From Candidatus Polarisedimenticolaceae bacterium (GTDB taxonomy: Bacteria > Pseudomonadota > Gammaproteobacteria > Chromatiales > Chromatiaceae): a stretch of 64,000 nt of DNA. Made by a program: the position numbers and the translations under genes. The notes beneath the pieces are model-generated. The model saw only the letters and a program-made list of their open reading frames with translations. It searched no databases and had not been told where the DNA came from. The stretch spans positions 1 to 64,000 of the forward strand of contig JAKITT010000002.1 of assembly GCA_021647945.1 (NCBI GenBank), written 5' to 3'. Below, in pieces: positions 51,884-57,032 of this stretch (position 1 is the first letter of the stretch; each line of letters opens with the position of its first letter).

Positions 51884-52162
51884 TCAAGCAGCATCGGTCT
51901 TATGTCGCGCCTGCCACATATCGTAGTCAAGCTGCATTCCTGCCCACACCTCTGCCTTTCCTCCACCCTCAACACCGAGCCAAGCTTCTATACGTAACGC
52001 CATTTCAGTAGAGATAGAGGCTCGTTCGTTAATCACTCGTGATAGCGCCGCCCTAGAGCAACCTAGTCGTCGAGCCGCCTCAGTTACACTCATATTCAAC
52101 TCTGGGAGAATATCTCCCCTCAAAATGCTACCTGGATGTGGTGGATCAAACATTATGTTCAT
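51884..52162 (-). CDS. higA: HigA-family antitoxin
   Basis: A 92-residue helix-turn-helix protein. The start MNIMFDPPHPGSILRGDILP and the HTH AARRLGCSRAALSRVINERA are typical of the HigA/VapI antitoxins, which bind the toxin and repress the operon. The C-terminus WAGMQLDYDMWQARHK is also typical. The gene lies 11 bases after higB, toxin first, the normal hig order. Confidence 0.92.
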   Translation of the reverse strand: MNIMFDPPHPGSILRGDILPELNMSVTEAARRLGCSRAALSRVINERASISTEMALRIEAWLGVEGGGKAEVWAGMQLDYDMWQARHKTDAA

Positions 52163-52173
52163 ATCATCAACCT

Positions 52174-52452
52174 CTAGTGATAATCCTGGTAATTAACCAA
52201 AATCGCGTCGCCATTCTCAAAAGCAAAAGTTAACCGCCAATTGCCACTCACATTGACGGACCATTCTCCCACTAGGCCCCCACTCAATTGATGCAATTTC
52301 CAACCAGGAACATTCATCTCTTCTGGCCTTGTCGCACGGTTAAGCGCACCTAACTGACGCCGCAACTTATCGACATGAGTGGACTGCACACCGGCTTTTA
52401 AACCGGTTTCAAACAACCGTTTAACCCCTTTATGCCGAAAGCTTTTGATCAT
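52174..52452 (-). CDS. higB: HigB-family toxin (RelE superfamily)
   Basis: A 92-residue RelE-fold toxin, expected to cleave mRNA on the ribosome. It starts MIKSFRHKGVKRLFETGLKA, with KLRRQLGALNRATRPEEMNV, GWKLHQLSGGLVGEWSVNVS and the final WRLTFAFENGDAILVNYQDYH, all diagnostic. I chose ATG 52452; 12 extra upstream residues have no homology. No promoter is obvious, but higBA are autoregulated in relatives. Confidence 0.92.
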   Translation of the reverse strand: MIKSFRHKGVKRLFETGLKAGVQSTHVDKLRRQLGALNRATRPEEMNVPGWKLHQLSGGLVGEWSVNVSGNWRLTFAFENGDAILVNYQDYH

Positions 52453-52557
52453 ATAGCAAAGTGTAGCTCGCAACGTTACGCGATACAATCATAACTTTTT
52501 AACTAGCAATCGAGAACCAATAAAGATCCCTGCTGCAAGCGGATGAGGCATCCCATT

Positions 52558-53059: not shown

Positions 53060-53117
53060 GGGAACTTTACCATTGGGGGTGGTCACCAGTAAAAGAGTCG
53101 CCGTAATTGGCACAATA

Positions 53118-53155
53118 CGTAGGGCGGATAAGCTTGCGCCATCCGCCGCATGGGC
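53118..53155 (-). repeat. REP element, inverted copy upstream of RAYT end
   Basis: The 38 bases match the reverse complement of the REP at 53734-53772 with one substitution and one missing G. The core can fold as a hairpin ATCCGCC/GGCGGAT. It lies 14 bases past the transposase stop, so the RAYT gene is bracketed by inverted REPs. Confidence 0.75.
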
Positions 53156-53168
53156 AAGCTTACAAAAC

Positions 53169-53702
53169 CTACCCACGCTCCCCAGCCTGAATATCCTCAA
53201 CCACATCACACCCCCAATTCTCAGGATAAACACCTCTTGCAACTAATCGGTGAAAGGTCGAGTAAGGCCAATCGGAAACAGCCACCACCCATCCATGCTT
53301 GACCGGATTGAAATGAATGTAATCCATATGAGCGGTGTAGTCTTCATCATTCCGTATCGCATGCTCCCAAAACCGTCTTTGCCAGATACCCCGTTCTTTG
53401 CGACGAACGCGCACCTTGGAAAGATACTCCCTCTTGGGCAAGCCTTTGGAGAAACCTTTTTTGATCTCCCGCCAACGTCCGGAGTAATCATCATCCTCTG
53501 TCGGCAGCGTCCAGATGCAGTGAATATGGTCGGGTAATATTACGCAGGCATCAATGTGGAAAGGTCTTTTCTGTTTTACCTTGCGAACAGACTCCCTAAG
53601 CAGCTCTATATTGTCGGTCAAGAGTGCTTTGTCTCTTTCCAATAAATTTATGGTGAAAAAATAGCTTCCTCCGGGGATTCGGCATCGTCTGTAATTGGGC
53701 AT
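53169..53702 (-). CDS. REP-associated tyrosine transposase (RAYT, Y1_Tnp family)
   Basis: A 177-residue single-strand transposase of the IS200/IS605-like Y1 class. The start is MPNYRRCRIPGGSYFFTINL, the metal-binding HUH pair is His59 and His61 in LPDHIHCIW, and the tyrosine helix is EDYTAHMDYIHFNPVKHGWV with Tyr122 and Tyr128 as candidates for the nucleophile. Length is typical. Such enzymes cleave and spread REP palindromes. REPs in opposite orientation flank this gene at 53118-53155 and 53734-53772, and more copies lie at 55402 and 56889. The frame is intact, so the enzyme may be active. Confidence 0.92.
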   Translation of the reverse strand: MPNYRRCRIPGGSYFFTINLLERDKALLTDNIELLRESVRKVKQKRPFHIDACVILPDHIHCIWTLPTEDDDYSGRWREIKKGFSKGLPKREYLSKVRVRRKERGIWQRRFWEHAIRNDEDYTAHMDYIHFNPVKHGWVVAVSDWPYSTFHRLVARGVYPENWGCDVVEDIQAGERG

Positions 53703-53772
53703 ATGTGGAGTATAACGAAATGGGGGGGGGGTAGCCCCATGCGGCGGATGGCGCAGGCTTATCCGCCCTACG
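53657..53772 (+). repeat. RAYT left end and REP element (copy a)
   Basis: This block covers the first 15 codons of the transposase, the CTGTAATTGGGCATATGTGG segment with its start codon, a G-run, and the REP core at 53734-53772 (GGCGGAT/ATCCGCC hairpin). Parts recur at 55402-55483 and 56889-56974. Confidence 0.75.
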
Positions 53773-53856
53773 GGCTGTAGAAGCCTCTATTGCCGTTCTT
53801 CATCTAGGGCACTGAGCCAGTCAGTTTATAGTAGAGTGTGTATGGTTGTGGAGATG

Positions 53857-53894
53857 AATACTGTCGGTTTTGCAGAGACAAAACCGACAGTATT
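53857..53894. terminator. 16-bp perfect hairpin after the OprP-like porin
   Basis: Bases 53857-53872 pair perfectly with 53879-53894 around a six-base loop. It lies 66 bases past the porin stop codon on the minus strand and ends in UAUU. It is the likely porin terminator, although the U-run is short. Confidence 0.6.
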
Positions 53895-53960
53895 ATTAGG
53901 TTGTCAGATTTAGGGCAAATCTGCTGCGTGAACTTTATACCAACTCATGAAATATCCGAG

Positions 53961-55121
53961 CTAGAAAACGTACTGAGTTTGTAAAAATAGCTCATCTTGA
54001 TCCTTGCCATCCACGCCGTCCAGGTTACTGCCCTGGCGATAGGAGAGTTGTGCCTTGATGTCCTGCTTGTGCAGGAACCAGTTGACCCCCACTGAGTTAC
54101 GCGTCCAGGCCTTATCATACTCATCGGCATCCATCGACTGAAAACCGGCAACCAGCTCCAGCGTTGATGGAATGACCATATAACCACCCTCCAGCGCCAT
54201 CTGTCTCAATGTGGCATCGCCATCCTTGAATAGTCCGCCGGTATAGCTGTTGTCCACCGTGCTGGCTTTAATTAGGTTGTACTGGGCATCCACTGAGAAC
54301 CCCGCGTTGCGATAGGCTGTACTGATCTCGATGCCATTAGCGCGATCTACATCCACTTTGCTGCCGCCCATGTGATTTCCTGCTGCATCTGTGAAAGTAT
54401 TATTGTCACCATCATTACTCCAGCTGAAGGCACCAAGGCCGATGGTCGCTTTCTGCTCCCTCTTGAAGTCACCCTGTGATCGTTTCAGATAGCCAAACGG
54501 GTGGAAATCGACTCGACCACCCACGACCCAACCCTCATTCCAGTCCTCGTCGTTGTTAACAGGGGTGTCAAAATCGAGTTTTTTATTGTCTGGATCAAGA
54601 TTCATACCGCCAAAAGAGAGAATGTAGCTGATACGTTTATCCTCGGTATGTCCATTAAACCGGAGGCCCAGCATATATTCTGGTGCGCCGTAGTTATGAT
54701 CGCCGACAAAGCTGCGCTCTACCAGCTGGGTTTTTTTAGAGGAGGTCATTGTCTCTCGTGAATAGCCTGTTTTTACATTACCAACGTAGATTTTTCCGCT
54801 GGAGAGACCTTTATACATCATATAGGCTGTTTTGACCGATAGCTCATTATCATCGCCAGCTTTGCCCATATCCCATTGCAGTTTTCCTTCCCAGTTTTTG
54901 TGTAGACTTCCTATGATGAAAGGGCGAAAGCGGCGGAAAAAAATCTTGTCTGTATCACTTCCTTGATCCGGTGATATTTGATGATACTGGATCTGTATTC
55001 GCCCGCCGATCTTTACATATTTTTCGCCCTCTTCGTGGACAGTGATTCCTGCTGCATTTGCAGCGGTAAAGCAGGTTGTAGATATCAGGGCTAAGCCCAT
55101 AATAGTGATCCGATTTTTCAT
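53961..55121 (-). CDS. OprP/OprO-type phosphate-selective porin
   Basis: A 386-residue outer-membrane porin. A signal peptide (MKNRITIMGLALISTTCFTA) ends near AANA, and alternating-residue beta strands run to a terminal Phe (LFLQTQYVF), the OMP insertion signal. Early strands KIGGRIQIQYHQ and FFRRFRPFIIGSLHKNWEGKLQWDMG match the phosphate/polyphosphate-selective porin family. The true substrate could be another anion or organic acid. An 11-bp direct repeat set and a Fur-like site lie upstream. It has a terminator at 53857-53894 and is monocistronic. Confidence 0.85.
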   Translation of the reverse strand: MKNRITIMGLALISTTCFTAANAAGITVHEEGEKYVKIGGRIQIQYHQISPDQGSDTDKIFFRRFRPFIIGSLHKNWEGKLQWDMGKAGDDNELSVKTAYMMYKGLSSGKIYVGNVKTGYSRETMTSSKKTQLVERSFVGDHNYGAPEYMLGLRFNGHTEDKRISYILSFGGMNLDPDNKKLDFDTPVNNDEDWNEGWVVGGRVDFHPFGYLKRSQGDFKREQKATIGLGAFSWSNDGDNNTFTDAAGNHMGGSKVDVDRANGIEISTAYRNAGFSVDAQYNLIKASTVDNSYTGGLFKDGDATLRQMALEGGYMVIPSTLELVAGFQSMDADEYDKAWTRNSVGVNWFLHKQDIKAQLSYRQGSNLDGVDGKDQDELFLQTQYVF

Positions 55122-55189
55122 TGGTGGTCTATCCTCGCATGTGCTATCAGAAATTAAGTATGAAGGTTAATAAGTCTCTATTACGATTA

Positions 55190-55256
55190 TCTTACCGAAG
55201 CGTTACATCTCAGTTACATCTCAATTATACCGCTATCAATAATGATTATCAATTGC
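55190..55256 (-). promoter_or_regulatory. tandem 11-bp repeats and Fur-like box before the porin
   Basis: GTTACATCTCA occurs twice in exact tandem (55202-55212, 55213-55223), and a partial copy with TTAC lies one period before (55190-55201). The 11-base period equals a helical turn, the geometry of Pho-box-type operators. Just upstream, GATAATCATTAT on the minus strand (55239-55250) matches twelve bases of the Fur consensus in a 19-base window with 15 matches. The sites lie 70-130 bases before the porin start. Confidence 0.55.
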
Positions 55257-55322
55257 GTTTAGTGGCGGCGCCATTATTGCGGTTACCGCCACCCGAGAGA
55301 GAGACAATAAAATCAGCCAAGG

Positions 55323-55345
55323 GTGGGCACGGGTTTTGTGCCCAC
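55323..55345. repeat. GTGGGCAC palindrome
   Basis: GTGGGCAC/GTGCCCAC (55323-55330 with 55338-55345) with a seven-base loop. The same GGGCAC/GTGCCC family recurs at 57725-57805. Between the porins (55257-55577) I see only this, the REP copy at 55402 and the terminator, no gene. Confidence 0.55.
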
Positions 55346-55401
55346 GCGGCAATTATGCAACAACACATTTGAATAGCGTGAGTATCAAAGTTGGGAGCAA
55401 A

Positions 55402-55483
55402 CTGTAATTGGGCATATGTGGAGTATAACGAAATAGGGGGGATAGCCCCATGCGGCGGATGGCGCAGGCTTATCCGCCCTACG
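55402..55483 (+). repeat. REP-bearing RAYT end, copy b
   Basis: Starts CTGTAATTGGGCATATGTGG, as at the transposase start, continues through GAGTATAACGAAAT and a G-run, and ends with the full 39-base REP core. It contains no transposase coding sequence beyond the first few codons. It is a short non-autonomous copy of the RAYT end. Confidence 0.75.
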
Positions 55484-55530
55484 TATCAACGAGTCTGACC
55501 CCTTGAGTTTCCTTCTTGGCGCACCACAAA

Positions 55531-55554
55531 AAACGGGACCCGAAGGTCCCGTTT
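55531..55554 (-). terminator. terminator of the second porin gene
   Basis: A 10-bp stem AAACGGGACC/GGTCCCGTTT (55531-55540 with 55545-55554) closes a CGAA tetraloop and is followed on the minus strand by TTTTGTGG. It lies 23 bases past the porin stop. Confidence 0.85.
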
Positions 55555-55577
55555 ATCACAGCAAATCTAAATGTAGC

Positions 55578-56594
55578 TTAGAATTTGTGCTGTAGACCAA
55601 AGGCGATGGTGTCGAAATCACCGGTGCTGCCTGTGTCATCTTTATCATATGAGTCATAGATGGCGTAGACTTTGGTGCTTTTGCTCAGGTTGTGGTCAAG
55701 ACCGACGGTAACAACTTTGTGGTCAAGGTCGCTGGCGCCAGCTGCTTCAACAGTCTGCTGACCGTAACCCAGTTTCACAGCACTACTGCCAAAACCGAAG
55801 GTGGCATAGGCTTTAGCGGTAGTAGAATCACTATCCTTAACGCCGCTTATAGATTCAACCTTTGCAGCCACTATAGCCAGTTTAATGCTGTTGATGGTGT
55901 AACCCAGACCCAGGCGTGTTCGCTTTTCACTCTCTGCATTAGCCACACCAAGAGCTGTCCAGGTGTCATCTTTAACGACTTCATAACCAAGACCGGCGTA
56001 GATGGGGCCATTGCTATACATACCAGCCAGGGAGTAGACGTTACCCAGCTCATCTGCATCATTGTCTACTGCGCCAGTCTCAACCAATGAGATGGCACCC
56101 GCCAGAGTCAGACCGCTCATGCTCGGACTGATGTAGGCAATTACACTACCAAGACGACGCTCATTAAACATTCCGTGAGGGCCACCTGTGTTCACATCTT
56201 GGTCGGCAGTGGTGTTGGCGAATGGATCCAAGCTATCAGCAGCAATCTTGTAAGGGGTGTCATGGCGGCCCAACAGTGCGGTACCAAAATCACCGGCCAA
56301 ACCAACATAGGTGTTACGTCCTTTTACCAAACCGTTGTTACCAAGTGTTCCCTGAGTCGCGCTTGTTAGAGAGTACTCAATTTTGTAGATGGCTTTCAGA
56401 CCATTACCCAGATCTTCAGAACCTTTGATGCCGAAGTTAGAGGTGGAATCTCCCATGCTCCAACCAGCCTCATCCATATTGTTATCTTTTTCTACAGTGT
56501 AGTTAATTTTGCCATAGACGGTAGGGGCGGCTTGAAGGGCCATTGGCGCGGCCAGTGCGGCGGCGATAGCCAGTGATACGATTTTTTTGTTCAT
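55578..56594 (-). CDS. general Gram-negative porin
   Basis: A 338-residue trimeric porin of the Porin_4 type. The signal peptide MNKKIVSLAIAAALAAPMAL ends at QAA, then PTVYGKINYTVEK. Typical elements are SNFGIKGSEDLGNGLKAIYKIE and RNTYVGLAGDFGTALLGRHD, where the latter begins loop 3 inside the channel. It ends in a terminal Phe (IAFGLQHKF). I chose ATG 56594 because GGGAG lies at the right distance and the signal starts there; a longer frame lacks both. It should be expressed alone. Confidence 0.9.
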   Translation of the reverse strand: MNKKIVSLAIAAALAAPMALQAAPTVYGKINYTVEKDNNMDEAGWSMGDSTSNFGIKGSEDLGNGLKAIYKIEYSLTSATQGTLGNNGLVKGRNTYVGLAGDFGTALLGRHDTPYKIAADSLDPFANTTADQDVNTGGPHGMFNERRLGSVIAYISPSMSGLTLAGAISLVETGAVDNDADELGNVYSLAGMYSNGPIYAGLGYEVVKDDTWTALGVANAESEKRTRLGLGYTINSIKLAIVAAKVESISGVKDSDSTTAKAYATFGFGSSAVKLGYGQQTVEAAGASDLDHKVVTVGLDHNLSKSTKVYAIYDSYDKDDTGSTGDFDTIAFGLQHKF

Positions 56595-56888
56595 GAAGAA
56601 CTCCCAGTTGGGTTGATTAAATTTGTTTACGGACGAAATAGTAGATGAGGCAAAAGGCCTTTGCAAGGCTTTTTGACAAAAAAAGCGACATATTTTGTAT
56701 TTGTTGTTTTTTTACGACATTAGCTTGCGCTATTTCTCTGGAATGTCTCGTAAGTTACTGAAGAGAAAGGGTGTGCACTGCTGGATCTATCTGTGGCGAC
56801 AAATGTGACCAGAGCTTTCATGCAGTTGCAAGAGGCATAAAAGCCGCACACACACAAAATATAGGTGTTTTTGGAGAGTGATCCATTC

Positions 56889-56974
56889 AAAAATAGCTTC
56901 CTCCGGGGATTCGGCATCGTCTGTAATTGGGCATATGTGGAGTATAACGAAATGGAGGGGATAGCCCCATACGG
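56889..56974 (+). repeat. truncated RAYT 5' fragment, copy c
   Basis: From AAAAATAGC at 56889 this matches bases 53657-53742 with few changes: the reverse complement encodes the first 15 residues of the transposase (MPNYRRCRIPGGSYF), then the shared upstream segment and CCCCATACGG, where the REP core breaks off. It is a remnant of a second RAYT gene or of a mobilised end. The 623-base gap 56595-57217 holds only this, the palindrome at 57007 and a candidate promoter; I see no gene. Confidence 0.75.
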
Positions 56975-57006
56975 AAGGTGCCGACCGGGAATCGAGAGTG
57001 GTATGG

Positions 57007-57032
57007 GATTCCCACGGGGGACCGTGGGAATC
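57007..57032. repeat. GATTCCCAC palindrome
   Basis: GATTCCCAC (57007-57015) pairs perfectly with GTGGGAATC (57024-57032) around an eight-base loop. It lies just after RAYT copy c and may be another dispersed repeat family. Confidence 0.55.

Follow-up and report, generated by a model that had tools for sequence, protein, structure and literature searches.

At positions 53,118 to 56,974 of the window (the whole stretch of DNA analysed, 64,000 nucleotides of contig JAKITT010000002.1) we find a transposase gene between two inverted REPs, together with two partial copies of one edge of this unit, referred to as copies b and c. The locus is probably a REPtron of the group-2 type, and judged by their sequence the two fragments are most likely truncated relics of local copies made from an earlier form of the unit. 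The REPtron type as such is known; what is added here are the gene-edge relics, a modest addition that might represent an early stage of REP spread. Coordinates are given in Table 1.

Table 1. Features of the REPtron locus and its direct surroundings (positions in the window).
Feature	Positions	Strand	Basis
RAYT / TnpAREP gene, 177 aa	53169..53702	-	ORF list, NCBIfam, PDB match, alignment
Leader, from REP to start codon, ten-C run on gene strand	53703..53735	-	sequence comparison
Upstream REP: CGTAG and 7-bp stem GGCGGAT/ATCCGCC broken by AA, inner 2-bp stem, loop	53736..53772	-	pattern search, folding
Downstream REP, inverted, one base different in loop region	53118..53154	+	pattern search, folding
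Copy b: complete REP, leader, first 14 gene bases	55402..55483	-	similarity search, alignment
Copy c: first 46 gene bases (15 codons), leader, ~7 REP bases	56889..56974	-	similarity search, alignment
Palindrome GGGTGGGCACGGGTTTTGTGCCCAC, other REP-like family, 13 genome copies (context, outside unit)	55321..55345	+	folds, z -3.1
Unrelated palindrome, 2 genome copies at <=3 mismatches (context, outside unit)	57006..57032	+	genome search, folding

The sequence-only reading had recognised a RAYT transposase, and this is borne out by the protein matches of the ORF. Its product belongs to NCBIfam family NF047646 (E 4.5e-61, 205 bits against a cut-off of 80) and is matched over its full length by the closest solved structure, that of E. 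coli TnpAREP (PDB 4er8, E 7.6e-61). In an alignment with 16 relatives the HUH motif (H58-I-H60) and the pair D126-Y127 are invariant, while Y121 and Y127, either of which may be the catalytic tyrosine, are both conserved or nearly so. The C-terminal AGER tail aligns to the tail of 4er8; the Gly and Glu of this tail are described as contacting GTAG (PMC8266576). By these matches the gene encodes a REP-associated tyrosine transposase and is intact; transposases domesticated in this way are a known kind. RAYTs are regarded as single-copy and apparently non-mobile genes (PMC2817692, PMC3116915).

The inverted REPs that had been reported around the gene were confirmed as well: GTAG-tagged palindromes bracket it in opposite orientations, and the two 37-nt arms are complementary at 36 of 37 bases (97%). 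The REP pattern has 3 matches in the window, against 0.00 expected from 100 shuffles. Each REP folds into a 7-bp stem, an AA/C bulge and an inner stem, hence a long REP with a stem irregularity, although the energies of the single hairpins are only weakly better than those of shuffled sequences (z between -0.3 and -1.4). The elements of the group-2 design (compare PMC8266576) are thus found together: GTAG, the 7-bp stem, the AA irregularity and the AGER tail. Because of the RAYT family, this REP design and the flanking inverted GTAG hairpins, we consider the locus a REPtron as PMC3733652 uses the term. With the group-2 REPtron of E. coli (4er8; PMC8266576) it shares the protein family, the GTAG tag and REPs that adjoin the gene, and with the E. 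coli y and z REPs described in the same source the long stem with its AA irregularity.

That REP and RAYT belong together, as had been proposed, also follows from other loci and genomes. At most of 80 related loci taken from a public scan the gene is enclosed by an inverted pair of GTAG hairpins, whose sequences vary by locus. Among 321 genomes sampled across the class, only two others contain the REP itself (<=2 mismatches). One of these, G164 (another family of the same class), contains a sister unit whose gene has 68% DNA identity, while its REP matches the upstream REP over 36 nt at 100%. REP and RAYT therefore form a recurrent pair. The REP is thus better conserved than the gene, which would fit a need of the enzyme to recognise it. 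Solitary REPs are dispersed over several other contigs of G164, so that the REP is an established type which can disperse in another host. The leader, on the other hand, shows no conservation in the sister unit, where most of it is missing; conservation of the leader for a function was for this reason rejected.

Within its own genome the REP is strictly local. The REP core (<=3 mismatches) has 3 copies in the 3.43 Mb draft, all at this locus and within 2.4 kb, and in the same draft (94.6% complete, so that REP or fragment copies may be missing from it) we found no leader or gene-edge copies beyond the unit, b and c. A genome-wide family had been anticipated by the sequence-only reading, which took similarity confined to these sites as evidence to the contrary; for this genome, confinement is what we observe. 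The remaining genome matches to the unit are only divergent RAYT genes at 67-74%. Several such divergent RAYT genes or fragments are present, and about 20 other GTAG-type sites of several sequence types were counted (4 in a reversed-pattern control). The 5' segment of the unit was not found in 54 other genomes (relatives).

Both partial copies that had been reported are real. Copy b aligns to the unit with 95% identity over about 84 columns (E 4e-31) and copy c with 94% over about 88 columns (E 1e-31), and all three lie in one common orientation. For copy c the first 15 codons are present as described, but unlike copy b it has no REP: only some 7 bases of the REP are present before the homology breaks off (CATACGG|AAGG), inside the inner foot, and no hairpin is left, while copy b ends at the outer foot (CGTAG). 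Copy b is thus longer on the REP side and copy c on the gene side, and their flanks are unrelated. Since neither fragment contains the other and the flanks differ, the two must have arisen, or been truncated, separately. The gene-strand sequences are GGGGCTACCCCCCCCCCATTTCG for the unit, GGGGCTATCCCCCCTATTTCG for copy b and GGGGCTATCCCCTCCATTTCG for copy c; both copies have GATAG and a G tract that is 2 bases shorter, against GGTAG in the unit. The ten-C form of the leader is therefore restricted to the intact unit. With their T and shorter run the copies do not stem from the unit as it now stands, except if its run (a ten-base homopolymer) is a sequencing error; given that the leader is unconserved in the sister unit, the copies' form is not proven to be the older one. 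The other RAYTs of the genome were considered as a source of b and c and rejected, with protein identities of 44-61% over most of their length. The REP of copy b and the downstream REP are complementary for 3 bases (ATA/TAT) past the REP itself (55447-55486 and 53115-53154); the upstream REP has other bases at these positions, and the extension may be due to chance.

The probable course of events starts from an earlier form of the unit, with a T in the leader and a shorter C run, which would have been copied locally and in the same orientation, the ends of the copies being lost during copying or afterwards. The copying might have been done by the RAYT, or alternatively by template switching of the host at the hairpins. 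By analogy with the E. coli enzyme, TnpAREP would recognise REPs as single-stranded hairpins and cut beside them. Because the homology of copy c breaks off within the inner foot of the hairpin, we lean slightly towards host processes in its case. It had been argued that the 5' end can move without the gene; truncation of local copies accounts equally well for b and c, and copy c is without the REP that such a move would require.

The main alternative, a sharper form of the sequence-only reading, is that TnpAREP cuts beside the REP and transfers REP-anchored 5' pieces to nearby single-stranded DNA, such that b and c moved as non-autonomous derivatives. Copy b begins exactly at the outer foot of its REP, the single orientation of all copies is expected of a strand-specific, single-strand chemistry, and E. 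coli TnpAREP is described as cutting at CT on either side of the REP (PMC8266576). Nonetheless, copy c has no REP by which it could have been anchored, b and c end at different points on the gene side with no common cut site apparent, and no copy is found elsewhere in the genome. We therefore hold this alternative to be doubtful, though it deserves more credit than the remaining ones. Much less probable is a single local segmental duplication as the source of both fragments, which the sequence-only reading had named as a challenge to its view: b and c are close, share orientation and leader state, and at a related locus (L058) a partial copy takes in DNA outside the REP, as plain tandem duplication would, but here each fragment exceeds the other on one side and the flanks are unrelated, the porins in between matching different Pfam families. 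Hardly credible, finally, is a role of b and c as leader or promoter elements retained for two porin genes, since despite their position and orientation (they point at porin starts 280 and 294 bases away, two cases only) a search of the fragments yielded no promoter-like site, and the best one of the region lies near the first porin and at a distance from copy b. That they point at porin start codons is probably a coincidence; terminator-like matches in the leaders of b and c are weak.

Relics comparable to b and c, which we favour as truncated local copies, occur at other loci. On contig C31 of the same genome (L109) a RAYT broken by two stop codons lies between inverted REPs (160-710), and about 2 kb off a second 3' fragment (2586-2790) shows homology that stops in the inner REP arm. 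A 43-base copy of the gene 3' end at L059 loses its homology at the REP. At L077 (3318-3567) a RAYT unit has lost the middle of its gene, with an intact 5' REP and a degraded 3' REP; this MITE-like derivative is situated 0.6 kb upstream of the intact unit, and the 5.0 Mb genome in question yielded no other partial copy. The partial copy of L058 looks like a plain tandem duplication. In all four cases, small numbers as they are, the relics lie at most about 3.3 kb from the unit and in the same orientation, a pattern that tandem duplication would also give and that thus does not discriminate between mechanisms.

Compared with known systems, the fragments are the distinguishing element of this locus. 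The E. coli group-2 REPtron has a large dispersed REP population (PMC8266576), against three REPs in the present genome, and unlike it this locus has two gene-edge fragments next to the gene. More similar are the REPtrons Ma and Mb of Marinomonas sp. MWYL1, whose REPs are concentrated beside the RAYT as they are here, which their authors attribute to recent arrival and multiplication in the vicinity (PMC8266576); confinement of the present REP to its neighbourhood may have the same background as in these reportedly recent arrivals. Gene-edge fragments are not mentioned for Ma and Mb in the available portion of that source, in contrast to our locus. REPINs are REPs paired in inverted orientation, whose proposed origin is in REPs on either side of an IS200-like element (PMC3116915). 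An inverted pair exists here also, but only around the gene: with a REP at each end as the mark of REPINs and MITEs, copy b (a single REP plus gene sequence) has one and copy c none.

REPs are believed to originate from what were once the ends of a mobile unit, and partial copies that combine a REP with a gene edge are the kind of intermediate this would predict; they are open to systematic search. It might be argued that the locus captures the beginnings of a REP population, with TnpAREP still copying pieces of its unit, the gene edge among them, into DNA nearby, where they would later erode to bare REPs. We regard this as rather unlikely, and if true it would contradict the view of RAYTs as single-copy genes unable to mobilise themselves, a question that one small locus does not decide.

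IS200/IS605 relatives leave no target duplication on insertion, and consequently the flanks cannot reveal one. In the only genome of the same genus another gene stands upstream at the right flank, and the contig stops short of the left flank.

Several further elements surround the unit. One palindrome lies 57 bases from copy b, with no transposase linked to it here, and a second one about 32 bases past copy c (Table 1). Between 52767 and 52821 there is an inverted repeat of 21 bases (AACCACAGAGAGCACAGAGAA), near-perfect and with a loop of 13 bases, which has no relation to the REP. Adjoining genes for a HigB-like toxin and a helix-turn-helix antitoxin (Pfam) at 51884-52488 on the minus strand constitute a type II toxin-antitoxin pair.
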